From a virus, in the IMG/VR virus record IMGVR_UViG_3300017782_003844, positions 1 to 38,046 of that record: 38,046 bases of DNA; one strand, given 5' to 3'. How positions within the stretch are numbered: the first letter of the stretch is position 1; every line of letters begins with the position of its first letter. Of this stretch, positions 17,415-36,019 are shown piece by piece. A program made the position numbers and the translations under genes. The notes below the pieces were generated by a model, which saw only the letters and a program-made list of their open reading frames with translations, did not search any database and was not told where the DNA came from.

Positions 17415-17443
17415 ATTATATCAAAATCCGTTGTAATTGTCAA
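17415..17443 (-). promoter_or_regulatory. Promoter P1
   Basis: Read on the minus strand: TTGACA, a 17-base spacer, TATAAT, a perfect sigma-70 match. It is preceded by the shared upstream element AAAATAGTTC (to 17455). It should drive SSB through nrdB, ending at the terminator at 8937-8961. The predicted start is near 17408. Confidence 0.9.
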
Positions 17444-17460
17444 GAACTATTTTTCTATGT

Positions 17461-18744
17461 TCAAAGCTCTTTTATGTGATAGCCTTGTTTCATGTAGTAC
17501 CCAATTCTGTTAGAAGCCTGTTTTTGGGCTGTTTTACCTTTTAGGTGAATATCAATTACAACAGGGTCTTTTTTACCTTCTTGCTTTCGTATTACCCTAC
17601 CTACTAGCTGTGTAAGAAGTGGTTCATTATTTATAGGAGTACCAAGTATTAAGCAGCTTAGTGTATTTACTGATATTCCTTCAGAGAATATAGCTTGTGT
17701 ACCATAAAGAACATTAGCATCTCCATAGAGTATTTCATTCACTAATGTTTCTCTGTCCTCGTGAGCAACCTCGCCCGTAACACATACAGCTTTTTCACCT
17801 GTCAGTTCGGCGCAGCTCTTTAAAAAATGAACTCGATCTGACACCACTAACACCTTATGACCTTTTGCGGCATAAGCAGCTGCTAACATAGCTACTGAGT
17901 GGCGATACTCGTCATTGTTTGCTAAGTTATTTACCCTATTCGCCCAAGGTATGTTAGCGCCGTCCATAAAACGCACCTCAGATCTATACACATGAATACT
18001 AGGAGTCATGAAGTTCTCTTTTGGTGGTTTAAAAACTTTTGAGCCAAAGTAATCACGAAATACTACATGTTTTCCGTCCTTTCGCTCAATAGTTCCAGAC
18101 AATCCAATCTTATATCTAGCATAGTTTGTATCTAAGATTTTGGAAAAAGTCGGGCTACTTACATGATGCATCTCATCAAGAATTATAGTTCCGAATTCTT
18201 TCCGTATCTTGTCAACATTCCTATAAAGAGTTTGAGTGTTTCCAATAACAATAGGGCTATCGGTATCAAACCTACCACTTCCAATAATTCCAGGTTCAAA
18301 TCCATAAACTTTTTCCACTTCCTTGGCCCACTGGTTTCGTAACGACACAGTATGTGTTACAACTAGTGTTTTTTGACCAAGCTTGCCAGCTATTGCTAAC
18401 CCCGTGAAGGTTTTACCCCAACTTACCCACGCATTAATAATAGAATTATCTTCTATTTCATCATATACATCTTGTTGGCTCTGTCGTAGGTCAAACTTAA
18501 ACTTAGGGAAGACTACTGGCTTTTCTATACGCTTATCTACAATCTCGTAATCAGATGGAATTAAATCTGTGCGACCTATAGGAATAGTTACTAGCCTTTC
18601 ATTGATCCGCTGCATATTTTTAATTACTTGTGGAGGATCATTCGGATTTCTAGGCGGAATAACATACGTAAGCTCTTTACTTAGAACTTCTTTGTATTCT
18701 CTAGTGCACTCAATATAAATTCTATTACTTATTACTGCTTTCAT
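17461..18744 (-). CDS. UvsW/Rad25-like superfamily 2 DNA helicase
   Basis: 427 residues. Helicase motifs are visible in order: an unusual P-loop WVSWGKTFTGLAIA, motif Ia LVVTHTVSLRNQW, the DEMH box (IILDEMHHVSS), motif III LSGTIERKDG, then the second domain with LVVSDRVHFLKSC, VTGEV, QAIFSEGISV and QLVGRVIRKQ. The P-loop has SWGKT where most helicases have GxGKT. The class covers branch migration and R-loop unwinding (UvsW of T4) and T5 D10-like helicases. The gene overlaps the HNH gene by 20 bases and has no ribosome-binding site of its own, so it depends on translational coupling. Confidence 0.9.
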   Translation of the reverse strand: MKAVISNRIYIECTREYKEVLSKELTYVIPPRNPNDPPQVIKNMQRINERLVTIPIGRTDLIPSDYEIVDKRIEKPVVFPKFKFDLRQSQQDVYDEIEDNSIINAWVSWGKTFTGLAIAGKLGQKTLVVTHTVSLRNQWAKEVEKVYGFEPGIIGSGRFDTDSPIVIGNTQTLYRNVDKIRKEFGTIILDEMHHVSSPTFSKILDTNYARYKIGLSGTIERKDGKHVVFRDYFGSKVFKPPKENFMTPSIHVYRSEVRFMDGANIPWANRVNNLANNDEYRHSVAMLAAAYAAKGHKVLVVSDRVHFLKSCAELTGEKAVCVTGEVAHEDRETLVNEILYGDANVLYGTQAIFSEGISVNTLSCLILGTPINNEPLLTQLVGRVIRKQEGKKDPVVIDIHLKGKTAQKQASNRIGYYMKQGYHIKEL

Positions 18745-19210
18745 AGTGGTAGTAGTGAGAGTTCTCTCTTCCTGTAGCGTATCTTAAATTAGATACAGTT
18801 GCATTATTTTTGTCCCCATCAATATGGTCTACTTGATAGGACAGCCTAAGGGTTGCTTGCTGTTCGGGATCCATAAGATCCCAGATACGTACATCACGAC
18901 CCCCAACAGGTACTGTCCTTTTCCAAATATTAGGGAGATTATCTTCAAACGGTAAATGGGCATCAACTACCGCAATATGTAGCCTTATATACACAGGAAC
19001 AGTTGTTGCTTCTTCCTTCTTGCTCACATAATGAGGAAATAAATCCCTAGGGGCAGAGATTTTACAACGAGGGTAGTTCCCTGAGTTATTTAAGTTTCTT
19101 TTTAGTATCCCACCTCTTTTGCCTAGTATATTACCTAAGTTTGAGACGGTATATCCAGGAACTTCTAACCCTTGGTGAATAAGAGGTTTCCATATTTCTT
19201 TATCAGTCAT
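18725..19210 (-). CDS. HNH homing endonuclease with NUMOD4-like N-terminus
   Basis: 161 residues. The N-terminus (EIWKPLIHQGLEVPGYTVSN, then LGNIL) fits the NUMOD4 DNA-binding motif common in homing endonucleases. The C-terminal half carries YQVDHIDGDKNNATVSNLRY (HNH core with its zinc/metal histidine and asparagines) followed by TGRENSHY. It is a free-standing mobile gene inserted between phoH and the helicase in an otherwise ordinary replication block. It begins four bases after the phoH stop with only a weak upstream GGGC, and its last 20 bases are shared with the helicase gene. The likely target is an intronless allele of a neighbouring gene in related phages. Confidence 0.92.
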   Translation of the reverse strand: MTDKEIWKPLIHQGLEVPGYTVSNLGNILGKRGGILKRNLNNSGNYPRCKISAPRDLFPHYVSKKEEATTVPVYIRLHIAVVDAHLPFEDNLPNIWKRTVPVGGRDVRIWDLMDPEQQATLRLSYQVDHIDGDKNNATVSNLRYATGRENSHYYHYESSNK

Positions 19211-19212
19211 TT

Positions 19213-19872
19213 TTATAAGCCCAAGTCGGTTTTTGCAGTTATATAAGCTTTAACAAAGTCACTTCGTACTATGTCGTTAATTTCAAAGTCTACTAGATCG
19301 AAGCTTTCCATTACTTTTAAGATTCGTACAAAGTCCTTCAATCCGTTTGTTCTTAGATCTGCTTGTCTAAAATCTCCGCAGAATATAACTCTACAGCCTT
19401 GACCTACTCGTGTAATTATAGAGTCTAACTCATGAAAAGACATATTCTGACATTCATCAATCAAAATAGTGGCGTTTCTTAATGTAACTCCTCGAATAAA
19501 AGATGTTGTCATAAAATGAACAAGACCTTTTGTTTTTAGGATCTCATACGCATCCCCTCTTTGAAAAAGCTCTATACAAATATCTTTGTAAGGCTCTTCA
19601 TATACAGAGGCTTTCTCCTTTTCTGATCCCGGTAGGAATCCAATGTCTCTTGTTGACACCGCACTTCGTATAATTACTAGCTTTTCGTATTCTTGTTTTG
19701 ACATATCATCAAAAGCAAGATAGCAAGATATAAAAGTTTTTCCGGTACCGGCAACCCCGTGTAGAATTAAATTCTTGTCGCTTTCAAATGCCTTGACTTG
19801 ATTCTTTGTAAGGGGCTCTATTTGTTGAAGTTCTAAATTAGCGCCTGCTAGTGTTTTAGATCTTTTTCCCAT
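19213..19872 (-). CDS. phoH: PhoH-like P-loop ATPase
   Basis: 219 residues. Walker A is LHGVAGTGKTFI and Walker B is ATILIDECQNMS; the sensor region is VIFCGDFRQADL. The block VIIRSAVSTRDIGFLPGS and the Y-x-EPYKDI string are typical of PhoH, a helicase-like ATPase common in marine phages. Its biological role in phages is not settled. It may act on RNA or on phosphate-stress pathways. The gene sits three bases after the 164-residue gene and directly upstream of the HNH insertion. An AGGAAAG leader about 12 bases before the ATG is a moderate ribosome-binding site. Confidence 0.95.
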   Translation of the reverse strand: MGKRSKTLAGANLELQQIEPLTKNQVKAFESDKNLILHGVAGTGKTFISCYLAFDDMSKQEYEKLVIIRSAVSTRDIGFLPGSEKEKASVYEEPYKDICIELFQRGDAYEILKTKGLVHFMTTSFIRGVTLRNATILIDECQNMSFHELDSIITRVGQGCRVIFCGDFRQADLRTNGLKDFVRILKVMESFDLVDFEINDIVRSDFVKAYITAKTDLGL

Positions 19873-19875
19873 AAT

Positions 19876-20370
19876 TTATACTTTCCTTCGTGTATCCTTG
19901 AGTTTCTCTGAGGAGTATTCATACAATAACCATGGAAGATCTTCATAAAGCAGAACTCCAGCGTATAAAGCCTCCGAGGGAGGAGGGCGAGGTATAGTGA
20001 ACTCAATCTTTACCCCACTTAGTTTTAGTAAACAAGCTACATCTTTTTTGTTTACTGATTTAATTCTGTAATACCGTAACTTACAGAATTTTGTTTTTTC
20101 GTAAATAAAACATCTTCCTTTCGTATCTATAAAATAGTTACCGGAACACTTGAGTAATCCTCTGAAATCATCTATCTGTTTATCTAGTCTAAATAAGTTT
20201 TTTTGAGGGGACTGTATTCTACGAATACCGAGAGTGTCCCCGCCCATGTTATTATCATCTAATATTATGCCATCTAAGAACAAGAGCCCGTCCTGTGAAT
20301 ACCAATTATCCGAAGGCAACTGGTACACAGGAAAGGATACATTTCTTATATGTCTATACTGAATCACCAT
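19876..20370 (-). CDS. Phage protein of unknown function
   Basis: 164 residues, rich in basic and aromatic residues, with no motif I recognise and no membrane segment. Two short patterns stand out: a CxK-type stretch (KTKFCKLRYYRIKSVNK) in the middle and a proline run (TIPRPPPSEALYAG) near residue 130. It overlaps the polymerase stop by 17 bases, so the two are translationally coupled. Its position between polymerase and PhoH suggests a replication accessory role, but this is inference only. Confidence 0.75.
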   Translation of the reverse strand: MVIQYRHIRNVSFPVYQLPSDNWYSQDGLLFLDGIILDDNNMGGDTLGIRRIQSPQKNLFRLDKQIDDFRGLLKCSGNYFIDTKGRCFIYEKTKFCKLRYYRIKSVNKKDVACLLKLSGVKIEFTIPRPPPSEALYAGVLLYEDLPWLLYEYSSEKLKDTRRKV

Positions 20371-23453: not shown

Positions 23454-23758
23454 ACTAAATTAATCCAATCGGTAGTTTCGTCTAGCATTGTTACCTCCGA
23501 GAAGGTTTCTACTAGCTTCTGGTATATACCTGCATTATTCATTTTCAAACCGTAACTATCCTTGTGACAAGTATATGTGCTACCTGATACGCCATGAAAA
23601 ATAAAGTAATCTTGTTCAATTTCCACTTTCGTAATGCCACTATTGAGCTGCCAACCCTCGCCTTGTGTATAACCGCCCGACCAGCCAGCAAGTACCTTGT
23701 ACGTCACGCTGTCGAACGAACATTTCAAAACAACCCAGTTATCAGGAGTGTTATTCAT
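23450..23758 (-). CDS. Phage protein of unknown function upstream of primase
   Basis: 102 residues, probably beta-rich (DNWVVLKCSF, YKVLAGWSGGYTQGEGW, YFIFHGVSGSTYTCHK). I see no catalytic motif. The recurring glycines and aromatic residues suggest a small compact fold. ATGA overlaps at both ends join it to the 92-residue gene and the primase, so it is translated with the replication genes. Confidence 0.82.
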   Translation of the reverse strand: MNNTPDNWVVLKCSFDSVTYKVLAGWSGGYTQGEGWQLNSGITKVEIEQDYFIFHGVSGSTYTCHKDSYGLKMNNAGIYQKLVETFSEVTMLDETTDWINLV

Positions 23759-24033
23759 CGACCGATATCCTTGATGTTCTCTCTACTGATTACTTGATAC
23801 GCTCCTTTGTTGTAAGCAGGTGCGATAGTATATGTAGAATCTAGCTGAGGTGTTTCTGTTTTAGTTGTGTTATGAGTACCACCGTCATAAGAAGTGTACT
23901 GAGGAGTCTCACGTCTATAGGGTTCAGATTGCTTTAGCTCGACAAAAGGACGAGTGTATTTCTTAGATTTAGGAAGAGGCTTACGCTTCCTACCAGAGGG
24001 CGTGTGCTTTAAACTGCCGAATGTAATTGCCAT
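23755..24033 (-). CDS. First gene of the P2 unit, function unknown
   Basis: 92 residues. The N-terminus is strongly basic (HTPSGRKRKPLPKSKKYTRP), the middle is polar and probably disordered, and a more ordered C-terminus reads YNKGAYQVISRENIKDIGR. An ideal AAGGAGAATAGCAA leader precedes the ATG, and the predicted transcript from P2 gives an untranslated leader of about 20 bases. It is the promoter-proximal gene of the primase-polymerase unit. The basic tail suggests nucleic acid contact; nothing more can be said. Confidence 0.85.
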   Translation of the reverse strand: MAITFGSLKHTPSGRKRKPLPKSKKYTRPFVELKQSEPYRRETPQYTSYDGGTHNTTKTETPQLDSTYTIAPAYNKGAYQVISRENIKDIGR

Positions 24034-24059
24034 TTGCTATTCTCCTTATATAAGCGTAT

Positions 24060-24088: not shown

Positions 24089-24098
24089 GAACTATCTT

Positions 24099-25537: not shown

Positions 25538-26257
25538 TTAAGCGGAAGCTTTTTCTTTCTTAGCTGCGCCATCATAGTCAGAGGCAGTGAGTCCACGACG
25601 AGTAAGCATAGTTTTTACGCCTCGTGCAGTCTTGCCAATGGTTTCTGCGATAGCTTCTACAGTCATACCGGTAACATCAATATCTTCCAACGGATCAGCT
25701 GCAGCGCCTTTAGTATTCTCTTGACGAGGAATAGCAGCGATATCACCTGAACGAAGCAAAGACAAAGCCTTACCACGGATGCTGTTTACAGAGCGGTCAA
25801 GTGCTTCGGCGATTTGCTCAACGAAAGCACCATCAGATACCATGCTAACGAAAGTAACTTCTTCGTCAGATGAGTAAGTGCGGACAGCCTCTACCTTAGG
25901 TGCAGGCTTAACATGACCAGTCAGTTCCATAGACAAAATCTTGCCTTGGATTGACTTAGGGGAAAAGTTTCCACCTTCAAAATGCTCAGCGATTTGAGCA
26001 TAAGTGTACTCACCGCTATTGTCAGAGACAAAAGCTGCAAGGGTTGCTTCTTGAGCATCGGTAAAAGATTTACCGCCAGCTGCTGAAGCGAGTTCTACAT
26101 CGAAGCCCATCTTGCGAAGTTTGCTAGATACGGAACGAGTAGAAGTTTCAAGGCTTTCTGCTGCGCCAGCAACAGTAGCTTGAGATACAGGTGATTCATC
26201 ACCTACGAAAGTTGTAAGAGCATCGGTACGCTCATCAGTCCACTTAGGAAGTGCCAT
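25538..26257 (-). CDS. Multi-repeat Myb/HTH-like DNA-binding protein
   Basis: 239 residues from the ATG at 26257, which has GGAG nine bases upstream; the TTG 15 bases earlier is inside that site and is rejected. The protein is built of about four diverged units of 45-60 residues. Examples are PKWTDERTDALTTFV with SVSSKLRKMGFDV, KSFTDAQEATLAAFV with KSIQGKILSMELTG, TYSSDEEVTFVSMV with NSIRGKALSLLRSG, and MTVEAIAETI with RGVKTMLTRRGLT. Each looks like a three-helix Myb/SANT-type or other HTH unit ending in a recognition-like helix. It is placed between ligase and helicase genes. Likely a DNA-binding structural or regulatory protein; no homologue is asserted. Confidence 0.75.
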   Translation of the reverse strand: MALPKWTDERTDALTTFVGDESPVSQATVAGAAESLETSTRSVSSKLRKMGFDVELASAAGGKSFTDAQEATLAAFVSDNSGEYTYAQIAEHFEGGNFSPKSIQGKILSMELTGHVKPAPKVEAVRTYSSDEEVTFVSMVSDGAFVEQIAEALDRSVNSIRGKALSLLRSGDIAAIPRQENTKGAAADPLEDIDVTGMTVEAIAETIGKTARGVKTMLTRRGLTASDYDGAAKKEKASA

Positions 26258-26261
26258 TTGT

Positions 26262-27011
26262 TTATTCTCCAATAAAATCTAATAGATTAGTTATGATTTG
26301 TATGCCAGACTCTCTGGCTTTTTTAGTTTTAGCTGACTCAGTGCCTGATTCATTAATCAAGTGAGTACAGTCTTTAGTTAAACTGCTTTTAACAGTATAG
26401 CCAAGGGCTTGTAAAACTTCAGTAGCTTGCGCTTTGGTTTTATAGCTAGAGAGTTTGCCTGAAATACAAACTGTCCCTGCCGAAACGGCAGACTTAGTAG
26501 AAGTAATACTGAAAGTATAATCAAAAGGAAAATCTCCTTCTTGAAAATCCCAGTGATACCAATCTAACAAGTTTTGGGTTGCTGTTGGGCCTAGGCCTGC
26601 TTGCTCACACGTGTCCTTGCTTAACTCAAATAAGTTATTAATTGTGCATGACAGCTTTTTTGTAGCACTGCTACCTATCAACGGGATACCCATTGCTGGT
26701 AACACAAGCTCTAGCGGAGCAGAACGAGATTTCGTAATCTCTGCGTAGAGCTTGGTTGCCAATTTCTCGGAACCTAGACGCTCAATAATGGCTTCTTCTG
26801 TCAATCCGTAGATTTCAGATGCTTGACCTAGTTCGAGCTTAGATATAGAAGAAGGCCCTAAGCCTTTGATTTTCAAAACCTTAGCGAAATGCTCGATAGA
26901 CTTTTGTAACTTAGAACCACAACTTACATTATGGCAGTACAGTAAATCATTTATAAACACAAGATCAGAACTACAGCTAGGGCAGATCGTGGGGGCTTGT
27001 ATCTCGCGCAT
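26262..27011 (-). CDS. NAD-dependent DNA ligase, C-terminal subunit
   Basis: 249 residues matching the C-terminal half of bacterial LigA. A four-cysteine zinc finger opens the protein (CPSC, then CHNVSC). Helix-hairpin-helix repeats follow (LKIKGLGPSSISKL, AMGIPLIGSSATKKL, AGLGPTATQNLL). A BRCT domain ends it (GTVCISGKLSSYKTKAQATE, then SLTKDCTHLI). The adenylation half is a separate gene immediately upstream, so ligase activity should need both proteins, as known for T5, which also has a two-gene ligase. P3 lies just upstream of the start, and GGAGAAG gives a good ribosome-binding site. Confidence 0.93.
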   Translation of the reverse strand: MREIQAPTICPSCSSDLVFINDLLYCHNVSCGSKLQKSIEHFAKVLKIKGLGPSSISKLELGQASEIYGLTEEAIIERLGSEKLATKLYAEITKSRSAPLELVLPAMGIPLIGSSATKKLSCTINNLFELSKDTCEQAGLGPTATQNLLDWYHWDFQEGDFPFDYTFSITSTKSAVSAGTVCISGKLSSYKTKAQATEVLQALGYTVKSSLTKDCTHLINESGTESAKTKKARESGIQIITNLLDFIGE

Positions 27012-27038: not shown

Positions 27039-27067
27039 ATTATATTAAAAATCAGAATAAAAGTCAA
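27039..27067 (-). promoter_or_regulatory. Promoter P3
   Basis: Minus-strand TTGACT, 17-base spacer, TATAAT, preceded by AAAATAGTTC. The -35 box contains the TGA stop codon of the ligase adenylation gene (27064-27066). It drives the ligase C-terminal subunit, the HTH-repeat protein and possibly the helicase. Confidence 0.9.
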
Positions 27068-28005
27068 GAACTATTTTTTGGGAGGTCAACCCTGGACAAA
27101 ATCCGAGGTATAATTTCTCCGCTCCGAATAACCTCTACTGTACATCCGATCTCTAAATCTAACGAACGAATATACTCGATGTTGTGTAGAGTGGCACGAC
27201 TAACAGTAGCCCCACCTACCTCTACAGGGTCAAGTATGGCTACGGGAGATACAACTCCTGATTTACCTACTTGCCACACAACATCCAGTAATTCTGTCGA
27301 CACGCCTTTCTGTTGTGTCTTTAAAGCAAATGCACCACGAGGATGCTTGCTTGTGTGTCCTAGCTTATTATACTCTCTGTTACAACGAAGGCGGTATACA
27401 GTGCCATCGGTAGGATACGCACGCGCATCGAACTTATCTACTGTAAGTAACCTCCAACGTCTTAACTGAGCAAGAGTATCCTCGTAAGATACACCAAGGT
27501 GCGGTGTAGCATCATATGCTACAAACACAAGTGGTCGAGTTTTAAACTCTTCCAAGTCATTGAGGCCTAGCGACCCCGATGCGAAGTTACGAGAGTTAGG
27601 AACACTACTTGGAGCAACAACTTCGCCAGTAACTTGAACAAGACCAGTATCATTGATCTCGGTCTCTACTAACTGACGCATCTTATCTGTAATATCACGA
27701 CCTTGAACACCATCTCCCCGAGTGAGTGCGAGTTCAAGATTGCCGTCAACGTACAGAAGAGATACTGCTGCACCATCTAGTTTAGGAGTACTTATACAAT
27801 CATCCAAAAATAAGGGAGCTTTTGCTAAATCAAAACACTTCTGCAAAGAATACATCTGGTACGCGTGCGAAACCGCATCTGTAACAGTGTAGCCCACTTT
27901 ACTATAGTTGTGTTTATCTGCTAGAAGATCGAACTCAGCATCAGAGATAGCTGGAGTCCCTTCATAGTACAACTTGCTCATCTTATCTAAAAAATCTTGT
28001 ATCAT
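27064..28005 (-). CDS. ligA: NAD-dependent DNA ligase, adenylation and OB subunit
   Basis: 313 residues covering the N-terminal half of LigA. A shortened NMN-binding (Ia) region contains YYEGTPAISDAEFDLL. The nucleotidyl-transfer core holds the adenylated lysine in TPKLDGAAVSL, then TRGDGVQGRDIT and VTGEVVAP. The OB fold contains DPVEVGGATVSRATLHN and GCTVEVIRSGEIIPRI. The protein stops right after the OB fold; zinc finger, HhH and BRCT parts are in the next gene. It seals nicks using NAD+. AGAGG upstream of the ATG and promoter P4 support this start. Confidence 0.95.
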   Translation of the reverse strand: MIQDFLDKMSKLYYEGTPAISDAEFDLLADKHNYSKVGYTVTDAVSHAYQMYSLQKCFDLAKAPLFLDDCISTPKLDGAAVSLLYVDGNLELALTRGDGVQGRDITDKMRQLVETEINDTGLVQVTGEVVAPSSVPNSRNFASGSLGLNDLEEFKTRPLVFVAYDATPHLGVSYEDTLAQLRRWRLLTVDKFDARAYPTDGTVYRLRCNREYNKLGHTSKHPRGAFALKTQQKGVSTELLDVVWQVGKSGVVSPVAILDPVEVGGATVSRATLHNIEYIRSLDLEIGCTVEVIRSGEIIPRILSRVDLPKNSS

Positions 28006-28063: not shown

Positions 28064-29254
28064 TTATTTTCTACTAATCTCTAATTCTACTGAATGATTT
28101 TTTATAATACGAGTGTCTTCAATATTAAAATAGTGTTTTACTGTATCTATCCACCACTGTGGCTCTTGTACTATTAAGTGCGCATTTCGTCCATCATTTA
28201 GGATTCTTTGTGCAGGTATAGTAGAGATACTAAGAAATCCATTCTTTTTAACAAGAGATTGCATATGTTCAAATACATTACCTAAGAGATCTGGCTCTAC
28301 GTGTTCCAACACATCTATACAGACTAAGAAGTCCGCAGGATTTGGAGGAATAGCGAGTGCAGGAACTCCTGGATCATACTCGATAACTGTAATACCCTTG
28401 CCCTTAGCTTTCAAACTTTGTCTAAATCCACACTGACCAGCTCCGTAGTCAATAGTTTCAGTGACACTATACTTATCCAGTATAGGTATAATTCTATCAA
28501 TCATAGAAGCTGCTGCAACGCCCCACTTTGTGGTTGCGTGCTCTTTAATCAAAGTAGATCTATACTCAGGAGAAGCAAGAGTACTTAAAGTATTCTTGTT
28601 CGCCTCTTGTAGAAACCTCCACCAAAGCTCAGTAAGATCTTTTCTAGGATGCTCTTTGGCGGTAAAAGGAATGTCGTGCTTAGCGTGCACAGTAGAAGCC
28701 CACGAAGGACTCCACGGCTGAGTAGGCATATGAGTAAAATGTAAGTGATAGATATCAAAGGGGTTGAGATCTTCTCCATCTAAGCAGTTCCATCTAGTGT
28801 CATATGTGGTAGCATACTTTATAAATTTTTGAAAAGCATACGTAGCGTAGTCTGCTCGCTGTCTAATGACAGAGACAGGGTCTACAATTTCTTTCATTTT
28901 AGCACAGTCCATGACCATGACGCAGGTGCGCCCTCCAGGCTTACATGCAAAAGCCGCATCGCCTAGATCCATGTTCCATAGTTCTGATATGTCTCGAAAG
29001 TTGACTTGATCTACATCCATATAAATAGCTCTGCCCTCGAAGTTGCACAACTCAGGTATGCACCAACGAAAAGCAGAGAATGGAGTAAACCATTCGCTAT
29101 CATCAAAGCCAGAGAAAAAACCTTCAGACTCTTTACGCATAAAAGTTAGTTCCACAGGGAGAGAGGAGTTCTTCTTTAAAGAATACTCCAACACTCTTTC
29201 TGCAGGTACATCGTCTGAACCCGGAGAGGTTCCTACAAATATTCTAACTGTCAC
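28064..29254 (-). CDS. Glycosyltransferase-methyltransferase fusion protein
   Basis: 396 residues with two domains. Residues about 1-210 resemble a GT8-type nucleotide-sugar glycosyltransferase: IFVGTSPGSDD at the N-terminus and a DxD metal motif in IYMDVDQVNFRD (D80, D82), then DAAFACKPGG. Residues about 230-396 form a Rossmann-type SAM methyltransferase: motif I TIDYGAGQCGF (268-277), acidic VIEYDPG (290-295) and FLVCIDVLEHVEPD (309-322). The GTG start overlaps the upstream PC4-like gene by 11 bases. Target unknown: modified DNA bases, phage proteins or host surface glycans are all possible. Both domains keep their key motifs, so an active bifunctional enzyme is likely. Confidence 0.8.
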   Translation of the reverse strand: MTVRIFVGTSPGSDDVPAERVLEYSLKKNSSLPVELTFMRKESEGFFSGFDDSEWFTPFSAFRWCIPELCNFEGRAIYMDVDQVNFRDISELWNMDLGDAAFACKPGGRTCVMVMDCAKMKEIVDPVSVIRQRADYATYAFQKFIKYATTYDTRWNCLDGEDLNPFDIYHLHFTHMPTQPWSPSWASTVHAKHDIPFTAKEHPRKDLTELWWRFLQEANKNTLSTLASPEYRSTLIKEHATTKWGVAAASMIDRIIPILDKYSVTETIDYGAGQCGFRQSLKAKGKGITVIEYDPGVPALAIPPNPADFLVCIDVLEHVEPDLLGNVFEHMQSLVKKNGFLSISTIPAQRILNDGRNAHLIVQEPQWWIDTVKHYFNIEDTRIIKNHSVELEISRK

Positions 29255-29549
29255 TATATAAATCCTCTAGTAGATCTTTAAAATGTTCTTCGATAATAGA
29301 CTTACTCTCTGCTAAAGAGAGTATCTCCACCAAACCAGAAAACAACTCCCTAGAATTATTAAAGTCTAGTTGCATTGCTATACCCTCAGAAGAAGGCTTC
29401 CACTCTTCGGAAAAATCCATATAATACTTACGAATATGTAGATACTCGATGCCTCGGAAGGTACTTACAGTCAACCTAACCTGTACATCTTTAACTGCAT
29501 CATAATGTATTACTTTCTCGTAGATTTCTGGCGACTCATGAAGTTCCAT
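29244..29549 (-). CDS. PC4/p15-like ssDNA-binding transcription cofactor
   Basis: 101 residues from the ATG at 29549, with GGAG seven bases before the start codon. Residues about 20-90 match the PC4 pattern: a beta strand VRLTVSTFRGIEYLHIRKYY, then EEWKPSSEGIAM and a C-terminal helix LFSGLVEILSLAE. In PC4 proteins the FRG-x-x-YLxIRxY and W-x-P-x-x-x-GI elements form the ssDNA-binding face. Phage T5 is known to encode a PC4 homologue linked to recombination-dependent replication, which suits this gene set. It joins its upstream neighbour by a one-base TGATG overlap. The match is by pattern only. Confidence 0.68.
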   Translation of the reverse strand: MELHESPEIYEKVIHYDAVKDVQVRLTVSTFRGIEYLHIRKYYMDFSEEWKPSSEGIAMQLDFNNSRELFSGLVEILSLAESKSIIEEHFKDLLEDLYSDS

Positions 29550-29818
29550 CACCGTTCTCCATTCTTTAGAATAGAGGCCATAGGTACGACACTGGTGACG
29601 TTCTTAGCTTTCAAAAGTCTAAAAGAGTCAGTGTCCCAGCAGAACATCAATAATGTACTTGATGACTCCTTGGCACGATTCTTTTTATTGCGAATATAGG
29701 GCGTACTAAAGTCCAATGTACAAACATTGTATTTTAGTTTTTTACTATTTTCACTTCGGTAGGTAATCACAGCATCGCCGTATTCTTCGACAAGCTGTGC
29801 TAGTTCCTCTTTTTTCAC
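29549..29818 (-). CDS. Phage protein of unknown function
   Basis: 89 residues from a GTG preceded by AAGGAG at five bases. The central VCTLDFSTPYIRNKKNR and FCWDTDSFRLLKAKNVTSV look beta-rich, with a basic loop between. The C-terminus VVPMASILKNGER ends at the start of the PC4-like gene. I find no catalytic motif. A hairpin separates it from the upstream HTH gene, so it may be expressed at a lower level. Confidence 0.75.
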   Translation of the reverse strand: MKKEELAQLVEEYGDAVITYRSENSKKLKYNVCTLDFSTPYIRNKKNRAKESSSTLLMFCWDTDSFRLLKAKNVTSVVPMASILKNGER

Positions 29819-29869
29819 AGGTACTCCTTGTGGGCAGGTTAGCAGAATCTTCTACTGTACAATCCAAAA

Positions 29870-29916: not shown

Positions 29917-29931
29917 TGCCGAGGGAATACC

Positions 29932-30378
29932 TTAGCCGTTATTAATAGCGGCAATAATACCTGCAAAATACTGGGCTGCTTTGCCAGTCAGCTTGCTCAA
30001 GATCTCTTCGTCTGCTTCCTGACCTGCGTCAGTAATAGCACCTGTAAGAGTCTCAATAGCTGCTGCTTTAGATACGCGGCCACCGCCAGTTGAAGCTTTA
30101 GCTGCTCCACCACCTGATACAGGTGCTTTTTTGACGTATACGCCGGCTTTGGTGAGAATCATGCGAACCCCGTTAGGGCTCTCACTATATTCTTCTGCTA
30201 GTTCTTTTACAATTTCCATGCTGGTTTCAGGAGTCGGTTCTGAGTTTTCATATGCTGCAATAACCGCTGCTTTTTTATCATCATCCCAAGCCATTCTTCG
30301 TTTCCTTTTATTAGGGGTTTTATTTCCAGGACAGTTACCTGTCGCTGCTAGTTGTTGTTGGTAGAACCTATCGCCCAT
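29932..30378 (-). CDS. HTH-like protein with Ala/Gly-rich linker
   Basis: 148 residues. The N-terminus is polar and basic (NKTPNKRKRRMAW). Residues about 27-85 form one unit like those of the 239-residue protein: MAWDDDKKAAVIAAYENS, then VKELAEEYSESPNGVRMIL and TKAGVYV. A Gly/Ala linker (VSGGGAAKASTGGG) follows, and then a helical C-terminus (SKAAAIETLTGAITDAGQEA). This suggests a DNA-binding head and an oligomerisation tail. The ATG overlaps the stop of the small membrane gene (ATGGGCGATAG, 11 bases). Function unknown. Confidence 0.75.
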   Translation of the reverse strand: MGDRFYQQQLAATGNCPGNKTPNKRKRRMAWDDDKKAAVIAAYENSEPTPETSMEIVKELAEEYSESPNGVRMILTKAGVYVKKAPVSGGGAAKASTGGGRVSKAAAIETLTGAITDAGQEADEEILSKLTGKAAQYFAGIIAAINNG

Positions 30379-30472
30379 CGTTATTAAACTTATATTCGAT
30401 GTAGCCTAGGTAGCCAAATAGGGTGTATGTACACGTTCCAAGTACTGCTAATCCGATTAAAAATTCTATCAT
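30368..30472 (-). CDS. 34-residue membrane protein, first gene of the P5 unit
   Basis: A short frame beginning MIEFLIGLAVLGTCTYTLF, followed by a few polar residues. It is one hydrophobic helix with a short charged tail, so a single-pass membrane peptide is likely. AAGGAAACC lies about ten bases before the ATG. It is the first frame after P5 and overlaps the HTH gene by 11 bases, which supports translation. Function unknown. Confidence 0.6.
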   Translation of the reverse strand: MIEFLIGLAVLGTCTYTLFGYLGYIEYKFNNDGR

Positions 30473-30500
30473 TTCTTGGTTTCCTTATTTTGAAGTATAT

Positions 30501-30530
30501 ATTATAACAGCATATACCAAAAAATGTCAA
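30501..30530 (-). promoter_or_regulatory. Promoter P5
   Basis: Minus-strand TTGACA, 18-base spacer (one longer than the others), TATAAT, with upstream AAAATACTTC. It drives the small membrane gene, the HTH protein and, past the hairpin, the PC4-like and glycosyltransferase genes. Confidence 0.88.
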
Positions 30531-30539
30531 GAAGTATTT

Positions 30540-31238: not shown

Positions 31239-31512
31239 TTAATTTATCCTCCAGTTTAAACATTAAACAGCATATGGCATGAGCAATGTGGCTCAGATCC
31301 GTTTCTTCATCTTCTTCTTCGCCTGCCATATCAGCAAGCAAGTGTCTTAGTGCAGCACTAGTATATCTTTCTTGTAGCTTATCTAGCCGTCTCCAATTAT
31401 CAGGACTATACTTAATTGCGCCATAAGTTAATACTTTTCCTACCTCTAAAGTGGCTAGAGGAGGTAGTAAATACATATCAGGTTTATTCCCATCATATTT
31501 AATTCCAGTCAT
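31147..31512 (-). CDS. DUF5664-type dNTP pyrophosphohydrolase (MazG-like fold)
   Basis: 121 residues. The start KYDGNKPDMYLLPPLATLEV, followed by VLTYGAIKYSPDNWRRL, RYTSAALRHLLADMAGEEED and EETDLSHIAHAICC, matches the phage family annotated as dATP/dGTP diphosphohydrolase (DUF5664). The E-E-x-x-D and downstream helix carry the metal-binding acids of all-alpha NTP pyrophosphatases. Likely role: trimming of the purine dNTP pool. It overlaps thyX by 14 bases. No purZ-like gene is present here, so there is no evidence for 2-aminoadenine DNA. Confidence 0.82.
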   Translation of the reverse strand: MTGIKYDGNKPDMYLLPPLATLEVGKVLTYGAIKYSPDNWRRLDKLQERYTSAALRHLLADMAGEEEDEETDLSHIAHAICCLMFKLEDKLIAKSEEERLRESKRNEHRESDIPAGPRYFR

Positions 31513-32185
31513 CTACTTCCCACTCCACAGCTTCTGCAACATCAGGAAAGTGCCCAGAAATAATTCTCCACGCTTGTTTTGCAATTAACTGGTGTTCTTT
31601 CTGAGTACCATTGCCAGTACGCAACTGACAGTAGTGAATCCAGCTTCGTAGCGACCCCGCCATGTAGAGAGTAGTCTCTGTGTTTCCTTCAGGAAGAACG
31701 GCACGGGCTTGCTCTTTTGCAATACCATTATCGAGTGCCCACTTATAGACTTCCTGAGATTTTTCAATAACTTCGTACTGAGCACGTCTCCATCGGGCAT
31801 CTAGTATAGAGTGTGCATCCATTTCTGGATCGAGGTCAATACTGTTCTGACGATTCTTCTCGTCTTGTATTCTAGCCGTTCGTGGAACGTAGTTCTCTGC
31901 AACAGCATAGCGTTGACTGAACTCTTGAAAGGCAAAAGAGCGATGTCGAATAATCTGACGAGAAATATCTCTCGTAGTAGTAATACCTAAGGTAATGTGC
32001 ACCATCTCAAAAGGAGACCAGTGCTCGTGTTGAATTAAATAACGAATAAGCTTAGGAGCACTCATAACATTATTTTGGTTTCCTGGATTACTTACTCGTG
32101 CTACATAAGCAATAAATTGGTTAGCATTGGCAGTTCCTGTCGTTGCACTTGGGTGCGACATTGCTACCAGTTCTACATCACTCAT
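31499..32185 (-). CDS. thyX: Flavin-dependent thymidylate synthase
   Basis: 228 residues. The ThyX signature RHR-x7-S is complete in IIRHRSFAFQEFSQRY. Other family features are HEHWSPFEMVHITLGI near the N-terminus and LPEGNTETTLYMAGSLRSW with the conserved Arg near the C-terminus. It makes dTMP from dUMP with FAD and methylenetetrahydrofolate, complementing the phage ribonucleotide reductase. The ATG follows a purine-rich AAGGAAAAC leader. It is the second gene of the P6 unit. Confidence 0.97.
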   Translation of the reverse strand: MSDVELVAMSHPSATTGTANANQFIAYVARVSNPGNQNNVMSAPKLIRYLIQHEHWSPFEMVHITLGITTTRDISRQIIRHRSFAFQEFSQRYAVAENYVPRTARIQDEKNRQNSIDLDPEMDAHSILDARWRRAQYEVIEKSQEVYKWALDNGIAKEQARAVLPEGNTETTLYMAGSLRSWIHYCQLRTGNGTQKEHQLIAKQAWRIISGHFPDVAEAVEWEVDDWN

Positions 32186-32214
32186 TTTGTTTTCCTTTAT
32201 AGATTAGTGTTGGG

Positions 32215-32814
32215 TTACTTAGCCGTAATCCTTTTGTCGTAGTCAGCATAGTCTTCGTTCCACCACCCAGGTTTTTCTCTACCGGTCCAACTAGCAAAAG
32301 TAGCTTTATCAAGATGATAGTAGTCACGATATGATTGTATGGGATTGTCATAGTCCTTTAGTTCCTCGGGCATTGCGAGTCCGAATTCGGTGAATCCAAG
32401 TCTCGGTAAATTCCGCGGCTCTGGTAGCTTGTTAACCACTTCCACAATCGACTTGTGTTGTTTCGCATAGCGATAATGATATTCGTCATTAAGAGCGTTA
32501 CCATAGCAGTGTGTCCATTCAAAATTATCTAGTGACGAACGTACCCAGATAGTGCAAGGGTGGTTGTACATCATTGGTAGATAAGGGGTTAGTGGTCGTT
32601 CTTCCATAGGAAGATGTTTAATATCTTTCTTCAAAGCATTGAGATGATCGCGCTCTTCTTTGTTGAGAGCACGAGGTACAAAGCCTAGGTGTTCGTCTAC
32701 CCAGATAGCAGTACACATTAGCTGTGCTACTTCTAAGGGCATTTTTACAATATGTTTGTCAACATGATACTCGGCACACTTGTCGAGGTCATTGTCAAGG
32801 TAAAAAAGATTCAT
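32215..32814 (-). CDS. Conserved phage protein of unknown function
   Basis: 199 residues. The N-terminus MNLFYLDNDLDKCAEYHVDK, continuing HIVKMPLEVAQLM, is a pattern I associate with a widespread family of uncharacterised phage proteins. Other conserved-looking blocks are YNHPCTIWVRSSLDNFEW and YRDYYHLDKATFASWTGRE. Several His, Cys and Asp residues (C13, H17, H21) could bind metal. It is first in the P6 unit, next to thyX, which suggests nucleotide or DNA metabolism. I cannot confirm an enzymatic activity. Confidence 0.85.
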   Translation of the reverse strand: MNLFYLDNDLDKCAEYHVDKHIVKMPLEVAQLMCTAIWVDEHLGFVPRALNKEERDHLNALKKDIKHLPMEERPLTPYLPMMYNHPCTIWVRSSLDNFEWTHCYGNALNDEYHYRYAKQHKSIVEVVNKLPEPRNLPRLGFTEFGLAMPEELKDYDNPIQSYRDYYHLDKATFASWTGREKPGWWNEDYADYDKRITAK

Positions 32815-32837
32815 GTAAAGTCTCCATTAATTTATAT

Positions 32838-32866
32838 ATTATACAGCCTATAGTATCTAATGTCAA
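32838..32866 (-). promoter_or_regulatory. Promoter P6
   Basis: Minus-strand TTGACA, 17-base spacer, TATAAT, with upstream AAAATAAGTC. The TGA stop codon of the ParB-like gene (32863-32865) lies inside the -35 box. It drives the 199-residue gene, thyX, the pyrophosphohydrolase and the HTH gene. Confidence 0.9.
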
Positions 32867-33381
32867 GACTTATTTTGCACCTTCTTATCATCTCTTAGAG
32901 GCCAGTGTAACTTATTACCCCCTTCTTCAAAATCCAGCATAGGCACTCCACTATTATCAGTTTCAGGCATATACACTGTTTTGAACACTACTTCACACAT
33001 TTGGAAATAAATTTGTACACACTCTTGGCCTTTCTCTTGATTATACCAATTAAAAAATGGTTGCCAATAAGGTTTGTCAAACTTACATATTCTTATTTTT
33101 GTTTGTGCTAGTATCTCATCCGGCAGTTCCATAGCTGCTCGAAGTCGTTGCGACCCCGTGATAGGATACCAACTATCTGTAGTAAGAAAGGGAGACTGAA
33201 AGCCATTCTCTCTTATACTTTCTAGTAGAGGTTCGTTGAGAGGAACCTTCTTTACATTCTTTTGATTTGTAGGCTGCTGCAGTAACCATAGTACCGATCT
33301 TTCATACCAACGGTGAGGAGGCCATGATTCCATGAGCCTCTCTGCTTTACCCTTATCTATCCTTGCGAATAAATCGCCCAT
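32863..33381 (-). CDS. ParB-like domain protein
   Basis: 172 residues. The middle part, VPLNEPLLESIRENGFQSPF, then DSWYPITGSQRLRAAMELP, fits the ParB N-terminal fold: the 'I-x-x-G-x-x-x-P' strand-helix followed by a GSQRLRAA motif in place of GERRxRA. The C-terminal third is aromatic-rich (KPYWQPFFNWYNQEKGQE) and unlike ParB. No partition partner is nearby. Phage proteins with this fold include nucleases, CTP-binding switches and modification enzymes, so the role is open. It is the last gene of the P7 unit, after the lysozyme gene. Confidence 0.65.
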   Translation of the reverse strand: MGDLFARIDKGKAERLMESWPPHRWYERSVLWLLQQPTNQKNVKKVPLNEPLLESIRENGFQSPFLTTDSWYPITGSQRLRAAMELPDEILAQTKIRICKFDKPYWQPFFNWYNQEKGQECVQIYFQMCEVVFKTVYMPETDNSGVPMLDFEEGGNKLHWPLRDDKKVQNKS

Positions 33382-33385
33382 AACT

Positions 33386-33832
33386 CTATACCTGTTCTAG
33401 TCTAACCATTAATCTTTCTGCTCGATTGGTAACTTGTTTATGCCAACGAGAGTCCCTGCCTTCTACTGCTGCATCTTTGTAGTTTCGCAATAGAATATGC
33501 TTGTTCATGTTCTTAAATTTACTGAGACGAGTACGCCCCATATTAAACATCATATTAACCAAGATTTGCTGGACTTCATCAGGTAAACTTGTAAAGTTCC
33601 CTTCTCCGTATAAAGCGTGACATTCTGAGATGGAAGTGTCAAGGTCTCGATCAAAACATGCCCGGACTCTTGCTTCGTCAACTGGAGTTCCAACTGGCCT
33701 TCCGAATTCCTCGTCACCCTCTTTGATAAGGTGACCGACTCCAAATGTTGCATACCCGAGGTGGTCATTGTATATGACGTATTCAACTCCTTCATCTATC
33801 TTCAACTGTTCGTACACTGCTTGTCGGTTCAT
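33386..33832 (-). CDS. T4-type lysozyme (GH24 endolysin)
   Basis: 148 residues. The catalytic triad spacing of T4 lysozyme is exact: E14 (KIDEGVEY), D23 (YNDHLGY) and T29 (ATFGVGHL), that is E-x8-D-x5-T. The C-terminal lobe contains LVNMMFNMGRTRLSKF and SRWHKQVTNRAERL, both typical. It cleaves the glycan strands of peptidoglycan. It has no signal peptide or membrane segment, so it needs a holin for release. The ATG is preceded by GAGGAAGTAG and lies inside the end of the outer spanin-like gene (41-base overlap). Confidence 0.96.
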   Translation of the reverse strand: MNRQAVYEQLKIDEGVEYVIYNDHLGYATFGVGHLIKEGDEEFGRPVGTPVDEARVRACFDRDLDTSISECHALYGEGNFTSLPDEVQQILVNMMFNMGRTRLSKFKNMNKHILLRNYKDAAVEGRDSRWHKQVTNRAERLMVRLEQV

Positions 33833-34187
33833 CTACTTCCTCCGTAGTTACCTTGCGATAATATACAATAACTTCATTCATCTGTCGTATATATCGCTTG
33901 ATTTCCTGCATATTATATGCCATTAGTTCATAGTCTCCTGGAGTCATCGCAAAGAAAACTAAAGTGTCTGTTTCCTTCTCAACTCTCTCCATAAACTCAT
34001 CAAAATTTCTTTCTGATACTACATACCACACAGGCTCTTTTAGATCTATGGCAGCAGGCAGTACCGGTTGCGTGATTTTACGCAATACTGGTTTTGTTAT
34101 TATCTCTACTTCTCTAGGGGGAAGTAGGCTGCAGCTCGATAGTAGCATTGAGCTCGCTAAGAGCAGCGCTATCTTTTTCGATTCCAT
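33792..34187 (-). CDS. Outer-membrane lipoprotein, probable o-spanin
   Basis: 131 residues from the ATG at 34187, which has an ideal AAGGAGG seven bases upstream. The N-terminus is a lipoprotein signal: KK, a hydrophobic core IALLLASSMLL, then the lipobox LSSC with the acylated Cys at residue 19. A proline-containing spacer (SLLPPREVEIITKPVLRK) and a helical end follow. The gene starts inside the coiled-coil gene in another frame (74-base overlap), and the lysozyme follows. That nested order is the classic spanin arrangement, so an outer spanin is the best guess. Confidence 0.75.
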   Translation of the reverse strand: MESKKIALLLASSMLLSSCSLLPPREVEIITKPVLRKITQPVLPAAIDLKEPVWYVVSERNFDEFMERVEKETDTLVFFAMTPGDYELMAYNMQEIKRYIRQMNEVIVYYRKVTTEEVDEPTSSVRTVEDR

Positions 34188-34524
34188 CAAACACCTCCTT
34201 GGTGGCTTTGTTGACTCTAGTTTCTATCAACCCAGGTTTTGCAGCTGCAAGTTTTGTAAGATTATGTCTCTTGAAAATATCCAAGTATCTATTCATCTCG
34301 CTCTGTATTTCATTATTCTTAGTAGCCATGTTATTCAATGCTTCTGTTTGAAGAGTAAAGTCCTCTTGCAGAGCATCATAAGCAGCTACTTGTTCTTGAT
34401 GACGTAGCTCAAAAGCCATGTTTAATTGTTCTAATTCATACAATTTATTCTGAGTTGTTTTGTAGTACAACCCACCGACGACAACGCCCGTAATCATTAT
34501 ACCTGTCATAAAAGAATTAAGCAT
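34114..34524 (-). CDS. Membrane coiled-coil protein, probable i-spanin
   Basis: 136 residues from the ATG at 34524, chosen because GGAGAAAACT precedes it; the longer frame upstream has no such site and crosses a hairpin. One N-terminal membrane helix (FMTGIMITGVVVGGLYY) is followed by a long periplasmic coiled coil (LYELEQLNMAFELRHQEQV onward) and a conserved-looking RHNLTKLAAAKPGLIETRVN. The type II topology, the coiled coil and the overlapping lipoprotein gene fit an inner spanin. With the lipoprotein it would fuse the two membranes at lysis. Confidence 0.75.
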   Translation of the reverse strand: MLNSFMTGIMITGVVVGGLYYKTTQNKLYELEQLNMAFELRHQEQVAAYDALQEDFTLQTEALNNMATKNNEIQSEMNRYLDIFKRHNLTKLAAAKPGLIETRVNKATKEVFDGIEKDSAALSELNATIELQPTSP

Positions 34525-34540
34525 AGTTTTCTCCAAAGTT

Positions 34541-34562
34541 GCGGGGCTCGTTAGAACCCCGC
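34541..34562. other. GC-rich hairpin between small membrane gene and i-spanin
   Basis: GCGGGG, a partly paired middle (plus-strand CTCGTTAGAA), then CCCCGC form a strong 6-bp GC stem that can extend by TC/GA. No T-tract follows on the minus strand (AACTTTGG). It lies 17 bases upstream of the i-spanin start, whose ribosome-binding site follows closely. Probably an RNA stability or attenuation element rather than a full terminator. Confidence 0.6.
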
Positions 34563-34568
34563 GGTGGT

Positions 34569-34676
34569 TTAAAGTAGTGGTCTGATGGCTAAAGCAACAG
34601 GGGTAAATACTAAACACAGTATCCCTGCTGACCAAGCTAGATGCCCGCCCACTTCTTTGATACTAGTAGTATCCAT
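34569..34676 (-). CDS. 35-residue membrane protein, holin candidate
   Basis: A short frame with an excellent AAGGAGATAAA leader. It begins MDTTSIKEVGGHLAW and continues as one hydrophobic segment (SAGILCLVFTPVALAI) ending in RPLL. It lies directly upstream of the spanin-like and lysozyme genes and there is no other obvious holin in the lysis block. It is smaller than most known holins and has one membrane helix, so the holin call is tentative. Confidence 0.62.
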   Translation of the reverse strand: MDTTSIKEVGGHLAWSAGILCLVFTPVALAIRPLL

Positions 34677-34685
34677 TTTATCTCC

Positions 34686-35090
34686 TTATGAAATTGTAAC
34701 CTTTACTGGTTGCAATTCAAGAGGAATTTCTTCATGCAAATCAATGCAAAGCAATCCGCGTTCCATGTAGGCTTTTTCAAGCTTTACATGCTCGCTTACA
34801 CCAAACTGTCTAGTAAAACATTTACCAGACAACCCCTTATACATATAGGACTCATTTTCGTTTTCTAACTGCTTTTTCTTACCATTTACAGTTAAGATCC
34901 CCTGATGGAGTATTATTTCAACGTCGTTCTTGTCCCAGCCAGGTATGGCTAGTTCTACTCTAAACCCATCTCCACCTACACGTACAATATTAAATCTAGG
35001 GTATTCCCCTTTTGGAATTTGTGTGCTGTCTACGAAACGGTCAAAACCTAGCCAGAATTTCTGGAGGTCAGCCAATGCTAAATTAGTCAT
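34686..35090 (-). CDS. Hsp20 small heat shock protein
   Basis: 134 residues. The N-terminal arm (LQKFWLGFDRFVDS) is typical of phage and bacterial Hsp20. An alpha-crystallin domain follows: PRFNIVRVGGDGFRVELAIP, then GWDKNDVEIILHQGILTVNG, and LEKAYMERGLLCIDL (the GxL-type strand). A short C-terminal extension ends in VKVTIS. It acts as an ATP-independent chaperone, perhaps for virion proteins late in infection. AAAAGGAGAAC gives a strong ribosome-binding site. Two tandem GNRA-type hairpins occur in its leader. Confidence 0.94.
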   Translation of the reverse strand: MTNLALADLQKFWLGFDRFVDSTQIPKGEYPRFNIVRVGGDGFRVELAIPGWDKNDVEIILHQGILTVNGKKKQLENENESYMYKGLSGKCFTRQFGVSEHVKLEKAYMERGLLCIDLHEEIPLELQPVKVTIS

Positions 35091-35109
35091 AAAGTTCTCC
35101 TTTTATGAA

Positions 35110-35147
35110 TTGCGTCCTTTCGGTACGCTTGCGCTCTTTCGATACGC
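35110..35147 (-). repeat. Tandem 19-base repeats forming GAAA-loop hairpins
   Basis: On the minus strand GCGTATCGAAAGAGCGCAA is followed at once by GCGTACCGAAAGGACGCAA. They differ at three positions. Each can fold with a GAAA loop closed by TC/GA or CC/GG; the C-G to T-A pair change between copies is compensatory. They lie 20 bases upstream of the Hsp20 start codon region, in an otherwise gene-free leader. Confidence 0.7.
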
Positions 35148-35160
35148 TATTAAGTTTAAG

Positions 35161-35205
35161 TTAAATGAGATCTACGGCTAGGAACTCCCAACCCTGAGGC
35201 TTCAC
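35161..35205 (-). CDS. Possible 14-residue peptide
   Basis: A GTG start overlaps the TGA of the preceding gene (GTGA) and opens a frame VKPQGWEFLAVDLI before TAA. The overlap style matches other coupled genes here, and no other use of this stretch is seen. It is too short to judge by coding statistics. It could be a micro-peptide, a remnant of a longer C-terminus, or chance. Confidence 0.25.
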   Translation of the reverse strand: MKPQGWEFLAVDLI

Positions 35206-35486
35206 TCTTTGCCTTTCCACTTCTTATACAACTCTTTGGCTGCTTGAACTGGGTATTCTTGTAAGTCAATATTTTTTAGAAAGTTTAGTAAAGCTACTTC
35301 TCTTTCTGTAAAATTATCTTCAAAGTCAAAACTTACCTGAAAGTTTTCAACTTCTTGCCACTCTGGTACGTTTACCACTATAGGCTCTTCTTTTCCGAAA
35401 ATATTTTTCCAGTTATTCTCGTACTTAGTTCTATCTGATCCCACTCGAGGCTTATCGCCTTTTCCACCATGCCATTGATCGCTCAT
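35202..35486 (-). CDS. Phage protein of unknown function
   Basis: 94 residues from the ATG at 35486, with GGAG five bases upstream; the earlier ATG lies in front of that site. The N-terminus is basic and glycine-rich (MSDQWHGGKGDKPRVGSDRT), the middle is acidic (FQVSFDFEDNFTEREVALLN) and the end is basic (LYKKWKGKE). It overlaps the zinc-ribbon gene by 4 bases (ATGA). The H-G-G-K-G-D-x-x-R start is a pattern I have seen in small phage proteins, but the function is not known to me. Confidence 0.8.
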   Translation of the reverse strand: MSDQWHGGKGDKPRVGSDRTKYENNWKNIFGKEEPIVVNVPEWQEVENFQVSFDFEDNFTEREVALLNFLKNIDLQEYPVQAAKELYKKWKGKE

Positions 35487-35740
35487 ACTTTCTCCATAGT
35501 CCATCGACTAAATTCTGATTTACATACTTGACACTGCCATAGAGATACGCCATCGTACTCTGGTGTCTCAATTCCTACTACATTTTTTCCAAAGTGTTTA
35601 GGGCTCTCTGGTTTGCACCCATATAAAGCTGCAGTCTGAAATGCTTTACGATGACTATAGCCTTTTCTTTCAAAGTATTCTGTTATGGTTTCTTCTTCTT
35701 CCCACGCAGTATTACAGTGAGGACAATTCTTAGGAGTCAT
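35483..35740 (-). CDS. Small zinc-ribbon protein
   Basis: 85 residues. CPHC near the N-terminus and CQVC near the C-terminus (SLWQCQVCKSEFSRW) form a likely four-cysteine zinc site that brings the two ends together around a helical middle (SHRKAFQTAALYGC). Such ribbons bind nucleic acid or protein partners. It begins three bases after the stop of the small membrane gene and is coupled to the next gene by ATGA. Confidence 0.8.
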   Translation of the reverse strand: MTPKNCPHCNTAWEEEETITEYFERKGYSHRKAFQTAALYGCKPESPKHFGKNVVGIETPEYDGVSLWQCQVCKSEFSRWTMEKV

Positions 35741-35743
35741 GTC

Positions 35744-35893
35744 CTACTCCTCGTCTTCTACTTCTAGCACACCCGTGGATATTAGGTAGTTCACTGCTGC
35801 TTCTATACCCGTTTGACGTCCTAGGTGGAAAGCAGTAAGTGCGCACCCAAACATACAGAAAGCGTAAACGGCAAAGCCGCTCATTGTAGTCAT
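35744..35893 (-). CDS. 49-residue membrane protein, first gene of the P7 unit
   Basis: A short frame starting MTTMSGFAVYAFCMFGCALT, with one hydrophobic helix. It continues AFHLGRQTGIEAAVNYLI and ends in an acidic tail EVEDEE. The leader CGAGGAGATATT is an ideal ribosome-binding site, and P7 lies directly upstream. Probably a single-pass membrane protein with a cytoplasmic tail. Function unknown; as first gene of the unit it should be well expressed. Confidence 0.75.
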   Translation of the reverse strand: MTTMSGFAVYAFCMFGCALTAFHLGRQTGIEAAVNYLISTGVLEVEDEE

Positions 35894-35925
35894 AATATCT
35901 CCTCGGTTTATGAATTTCTGTGTAT

Positions 35926-35954
35926 ATTATAACAAAATAAGGAATTCATGTCAA
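35926..35954 (-). promoter_or_regulatory. Promoter P7 (leftward)
   Basis: Minus-strand TTGACA, 17-base spacer, TATAAT, with upstream AAAATATTTC. It drives the small membrane gene, zinc ribbon, Hsp20, lysis genes and ParB-like gene. It is divergent from P8, with the two -35 boxes 36 bases apart. Confidence 0.92.
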
Positions 35955-35990
35955 GAAATATTTTTGAAAACCTCTTTGGAAAAAAATCTC

Positions 35991-36019
35991 TTGACTTTTC
36001 ATTCATTATCCACTATAAT
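35991..36019 (+). promoter_or_regulatory. Promoter P8 (rightward)
   Basis: Plus-strand TTGACT, 17-base spacer, TATAAT, preceded by AAAAAAATCTC, the same extended pattern as the leftward promoters. It is the only plus-strand promoter of this type in the window. The first ATG lies at the predicted transcription start (36026). Confidence 0.9.

Follow-up and report, generated by a model that had tools for sequence, protein, structure and literature searches.

One promoter module with a candidate class-separating base and predicted leaderless genes in an uncultivated T5-like phage lineage

The IMG/VR virus record IMGVR_UViG_3300017782_003844 was analysed over its complete length of 38,046 bases (the window), and carries between positions 17,415 and 36,019 eight closely similar sites of promoter type, P1 to P8. 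They probably serve the early genes of a T5-like phage and would be read by the host RNA polymerase: their common module appears to include an UP-element half-site, the first base after the -10 hexamer (position -6) would mark the promoter class, and a subset of the genes behind such promoters is predicted to give leaderless messages. An initial annotation of this DNA had described the eight sites and their extended consensus. Beyond that description, comparison with relatives points to one module serving both early and late genes, split by the base at -6, and to two distinct spacings between promoter and start codon.

All eight sites are present where the initial annotation had placed them (Table 1), and its account of their cores stands: the -10 is TATAAT throughout, the -35 reads TTGACA at five sites and TTGACT at the other three, and the spacer is 17 nucleotides (nt), or 18 in P5. 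Hexamers of the sigma70 type at 16-18 nt spacing lie well above chance, with eight perfect TTGACA/T-17(18)-TATAAT cores observed against 0.06 expected (maximum 1 in 500 first-order Markov shuffles of the window). The 11 bases 5' of the -35 match AAAAATARTTC at 8-11 positions at every site; the window background is 3.3 matches, and 0.4% of positions reach 8. The finer wording of the consensus needs amendment in two places: the (A/G)-x-(T/G)TC block holds at seven sites and fails at P8, which has ..ATCTC, and the A-rich tract claimed for all sites is interrupted in P2. Further constant features, absent from the earlier description, are an A directly 3' of TATAAT at all eight sites and TATAATAT at seven. 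The only other high-scoring site in the window, at 33067 on the minus strand (TTGGCA-16-TATAAT), is without the upstream element. Seven of the promoters point leftward (17-36 kb) and one rightward, with P7 and P8 back to back and their -35 boxes 36 nt apart (33-38 nt in seven related contigs). The proposal that these promoters define the transcription map can be kept as regards starts, which they suggest; few terminator-like sites are found on the transcribed strand, so the units probably overlap by read-through.

The module is conserved in relatives. Eighty of these, mostly partial contigs, were picked for the similarity of their D5 proteins and independently of the motif, and yield 234 distinct core sites with the same upstream element, the sites being selected for a perfect core. 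The logo of the 223 sites with a 17-nt spacer has A at -44 to -42 (96%), T at -41 (88%), A at -40 (92%), T at -38 (87%), T at -37 (89%) and C at -36 (95%). An extended -10 (TGn) was considered and rejected: it is not conserved in this logo, where G at -13 is conserved instead. Perfect cores stand 5' of 228 of the 245 orthologues of promoter-linked genes (P1 24/25; P2 36/36; P3 50/50; P4 49/50; P5 30/38, or 38/38 when relaxed; P6 27/34; P8 12/12), and a core precedes 14 of 15 orthologues of the first gene behind P7. Among control genes, D5, DnaB and PolA included, a perfect core precedes 1 of 595 orthologues, and D5 itself has none in 60. The motif search in relatives that the initial annotation had proposed, with absence of the element from other copies as the refuting outcome, did not refute it. 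In long contigs the same element and core also stand before the terminase small subunit gene, the gene preceding the portal gene, the tail assembly chaperone (TAC) gene, a tail-fibre-assembly-like gene and, in the same arm, a gene of 504 amino acids (aa).

By gene content the window is the early-gene arm of a T5-like phage: it encodes a D5-like regulator, LigA and LigB (a split NAD ligase), PolA, primase, DnaB-type and D10-type helicases, SbcCD, an exonuclease, NrdAB, thymidylate synthase and PhoH. For PolA and D5 the best cultured matches come from T5-like phages and share about 45-50% identity. Our comparison with T5 itself rests on the T5 record (AY543070 annotation) and on PMC7472727. In T5, all promoter classes are transcribed by the host sigma70 RNA polymerase; early (ATATT) and late promoters are proposed to differ mainly in the discriminator, and the mechanism of the early-to-late switch is called unknown, with the discriminator pointed to (PMC7472727). 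The module described here resembles these host sigma70 promoters in its 17-nt spacer, TATAAT, the A-tract at -46 to -42 and the ATAT-type discriminator of the early promoters, and thus has the traits of a T5-type early promoter; promoters also stand at the same genes, ligA and ligB (T5 annotation, orthologue test). T5, however, mostly has TTGCTW after AAAAATTYAT or similar, whereas here TTGACW follows AAAAATARTTC; the Vibrio phage VCPH stands between the two, as it has TTGCTT as well as TTGACT. Since the -35 is TTGACW and not the TTGCTW of most T5 early promoters, we file the module as a variant: on present sequence comparison, it is best taken as the form that the known T5-type promoter for host sigma70 has in this lineage.

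As to the upstream element, AAAATARTTC occurs 76 times in 423 kb of non-redundant relatives, with 73 copies directly before TTGAC and 3 free copies against 5.9 expected. As it nearly always abuts TTGAC, the element belongs to the promoter, and a free-standing operator is rejected; it neither occurs independently of the core nor distinguishes promoter classes. Its A-tract, given the 17-nt spacer, lies at -46 to -42, the register of the proximal UP-element subsite (PMC2613000). That P1 to P8 would be strong sigma70-type promoters with a common upstream element is strongly supported. Between the two roles that the initial annotation had offered for the shared upstream bases, a site for the C-terminal domain of the RNA polymerase alpha subunit (alpha-CTD) is favoured by the UP register and the T5-like A-tract, and a separate site for a phage regulator is disfavoured; the element is probably an alpha-CTD half-site built into a strong host promoter. 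Being common to early and late promoters, it cannot alone carry timing. The UP consensus is AAAAAARNR. The element is like the proximal subsite in having an A-rich block in the right register, directly 5' of the -35; what speaks against the identification is that it departs from the consensus at -41 and -38, both T, and that the fixed TTC before TTGAC (87-95%), likewise outside the consensus, is stricter than known alpha-CTD or sigma70 needs.

This strictness would suit an alternative that makes the upstream block an operator: a phage regulator, likeliest D5, would bind the -35 region for early shut-off or late activation. T5 D5 is annotated as DNA-binding, required for late transcription and involved in shut-off; the D5 of the window gives a marginal match to Sigma70 region 4 and has four predicted helix-turn-helix repeats, and the TARTTC part is stricter in early than in late promoters (C at -36 in 95% versus 64%). 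We nevertheless consider such an operator unlikely: the element is almost never found outside promoters and, as it occurs in both classes, would by itself provide no class-specific control. The specific candidate of D5 as a sigma region 4-like binder of the -35 was set aside, with the Pfam match marginal at the cut-off and no confident match in a fold comparison, and is kept as part of this rival.

The distance from the -10 to the first open ATG falls into two groups: it is 6-8 nt at 38 sites and 22-30 nt at 135, with 9 sites at 9-21 nt. A Shine-Dalgarno-like triplet is found at 2 of the 65 sites with a spacing of at most 8 nt versus 146 of the remaining 161. In 59 of the 60 distinct regions preceding the terminase small subunit gene, 6 or 7 nt separate the -10 from the ATG, often as a pyrimidine-rich discriminator such as TCTCTC, and the more remote contigs G006 and G012 show the same 6-7 nt geometry; among P8 orthologues, 17 of 21 have the ATG 6-8 nt after the -10. 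T5 differs in this respect: neither in T5 nor in VCPH or AhSzq-1 did any promoter have an open ATG 4-10 nt behind it. The T5 promoter N25 has six bases between the -10 and +1, as read from a -12 to +2 oligonucleotide (PMC7472727); on this basis messages with a 6-8 nt spacing should begin at AUG, and the close-spaced genes devoid of a Shine-Dalgarno sequence are predicted to give leaderless mRNA. These would resemble leaderless mRNAs like that of lambda cI (PMC9031893) in that promoter placement starts the message at AUG, without a Shine-Dalgarno; the predicted cases here differ in involving terminase, ligase and other genes, and in being kept across a phage lineage. A search for publications on leaderless terminase or T5-like phage transcripts found nothing relevant. 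The P8 gene cluster includes a gene for ribosomal protein bS21, which has 25 tblastn matches in related loci; a link between bS21 and leaderless translation is only a guess.

Genes with an ATG 6-8 nt after the -10 might instead be translated from read-through messages, the promoter serving downstream genes only. P1 seems such a case: in 51 of 52 orthologues, some with GTG or TTG as start codon, this codon is placed between -2 and +3 nt from the -10. As this is upstream of any plausible +1, P1 messages would miss the start codon of the first gene; about 79% of the orthologues have an internal Met in frame. A start codon 5' of the predicted start point is not explained by the scheme favoured here and counts against it. 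As an account of the close-spaced genes in general, read-through translation nonetheless seems improbable, as the spacings cluster where +1 would be the A of ATG and avoid 4-5 and 9-21 nt, and these genes lack the Shine-Dalgarno that such translation should use.

The promoter classes, with 'early' and 'late' assigned by gene function and not by time, separate at the first base after TATAAT. Among 165 distinct early promoters 98% have A there, whereas of 101 distinct late promoters none has A and 91% have T; two late families sampled more widely have T in 14 of 17 and 14 of 16, and for all late promoters together about 4 of 130 have A, i.e. about 97% are non-A. With the locus as the unit, A is found at 7 of 7 early and 0 of 5 late loci (Fisher p = 0.0013). 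With few exceptions, the A sites of seven long contigs occupy a different genome arm from the non-A sites. As the classes coincide with the arms, the split could be a by-product of the structural arm, through its base composition or its strand; we give this little weight, since A-tract, -35 and -10 are unchanged between arms, both strands are represented in each class among the contigs, and five late families agree on the split. Several other points weigh against -6 as a general class base. The functional assignment of the classes is itself one; the base is T at P8 of one contig (G011), and A at three TAC promoters and one promoter of phrog_1084; and T at -6 of late promoters belongs to this lineage and not to T5, whose own late promoters are without it. 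A relative of gpT5.026, sought by tblastn, was not found, although this is a weak test. Moreover, the sequences are related, so that promoter counts overstate independence, and the sites were picked for a perfect core. Lastly, recent copying of one promoter cassette, which might be suspected where several sites in a single genome share near-identical 11-mers, is rejected as a highly improbable source of the uniformity, because spacers, flanks and downstream sequence vary between sites and orthologous positions are kept in relatives with diverged spacers.

In the explanation we propose, the host sigma70 holoenzyme would recognise TTGACW/TATAAT at P1 to P8, and AAAAATARTTC would act as part of the promoter, most likely as a proximal UP half-site for the alpha-CTD together with bases beside the -35, making the promoters strong without a phage activator. 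Late genes would run from the same strong module; class would be set by the discriminator, chiefly by the -6 base, where A would mark early promoters and T, or in some cases C or G, late ones. Some alteration of the polymerase in the course of infection would then have to read this signal when early gives way to late transcription. For a sizeable subset of the genes +1 would be the A of the ATG; in the window this applies to P8, and in many relatives to the P6 gene, to LigA and to the terminase small subunit. That the whole lineage uses one sigma70 module for early and late genes, with class in the -6 base and leaderless expression of the terminase small subunit and other genes, possibly aided by bS21, is a broader suggestion that we hold tentatively and with some doubt.

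Table 1. Promoters P1 to P8, associated genes and other features of the window
Feature	Position	Strand	-35 to -10	Description
P1	17415..17454	-	17443-17415	AAAAATAGTTC-TTGACA-17-TATAAT; start codon directly after -10 (TATAATATG)
P1 gene	17010..17414	-		134 aa; phrog_4258
P2	24060..24099	-	24088-24060	GAAGATAGTTC-TTGACA-17-TATAAT; before 92-aa gene 23755-24033 and primase/PolA genes
P3	27039..27078	-	27067-27039	AAAAATAGTTC-TTGACT-17-TATAAT; before LigB and D5
P4	28032..28071	-	28060-28032	GAAAATAATTC-TTGACT-17-TATAAT; before LigA
P5	30501..30541	-	30530-30501	AAAAATACTTC-TTGACA-18-TATAAT; before 34-aa open reading frame (ORF) and gene 29932-30378
P6	32838..32877	-	32866-32838	CAAAATAAGTC-TTGACA-17-TATAAT; before 32215-32814
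P6 gene	32215-32814	-		phrog_624, DNA-binding; weak Pfam Pyr_excise match
P7	35926..35965	-	35954-35926	AAAAATATTTC-TTGACA-17-TATAAT; before 49-aa ORF (start 35893)
P8	35980..36019	+	35991-36019	AAAAAAATCTC-TTGACT-17-TATAAT; ATG 6 nt after -10, predicted leaderless
First P8 gene	36026..36211	+		61-aa basic protein; PWT..ER motif resembling D5 repeat; no confident match in family search
bS21, P8 gene cluster	36410..36592	+		Pfam Ribosomal_S21 8.6e-13
D5-like regulator	25538..26257	-		phrog_323 5.6e-45; four predicted helix-turn-helix repeats; without own promoter
LigB	26262..27011	-		gene after P3
LigA	27064..28005	-		gene after P4
2965-aa ORF	35-8932	+		weak tail-fibre matches
PC4-type gene	29244-29552	-		single-stranded DNA-binding coactivator
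Hsp20-type gene	34686-35090	-		small heat-shock protein; adjoining spanin and lysozyme-like genes at 33386-34635

Besides the promoter-linked genes, the window contains a very long ORF (2965 aa), convergent with the early arm and in the place of the L-shaped tail fibre gene of T5. A gene annotated similarly to the PC4-type gene adjoins DNA ligase in VCPH. A near-identical phage was sought in INPHARED and none was found; D5 relatives are encoded on at least 596 IMG/VR stretches, which indicates a large uncultivated lineage. One related genome of 82,805 bp (G002) has its early and late arms clearly apart and direct terminal repeats of about 4.9 kb, and is therefore probably complete; no RNA polymerase match was obtained among the larger ORFs scanned in it, the scan covering part of its ORFs. 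A host call from contigs of metagenome-assembled genomes (MAGs) carrying the pattern was dropped, as the bins are of conflicting taxa (bacterial or archaeal), and many pattern matches in AT-rich Firmicutes MAG contigs look like chance and offer no basis for a host. Contig 44 of a Halieaceae MAG is a 24.8-kb piece of the same phage lineage; it is not firm host evidence because other bins with such contigs differ in taxon. The names of the MAG bins suggest a marine setting for the lineage.

The passage of T5-type phages from early to late transcription, when all promoter classes are served by the host sigma70 RNA polymerase, still calls for an explanation (PMC7472727). With an A-tract, -35 and -10 that are near-constant and one base that separates the classes, the lineage offers a natural experiment in which a single base would put the discriminator idea to the test. 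With its conserved spacing of 6-7 nt, this group of phages, which encodes a bS21 of its own, also supplies candidate leaderless mRNAs in a large and clean set.

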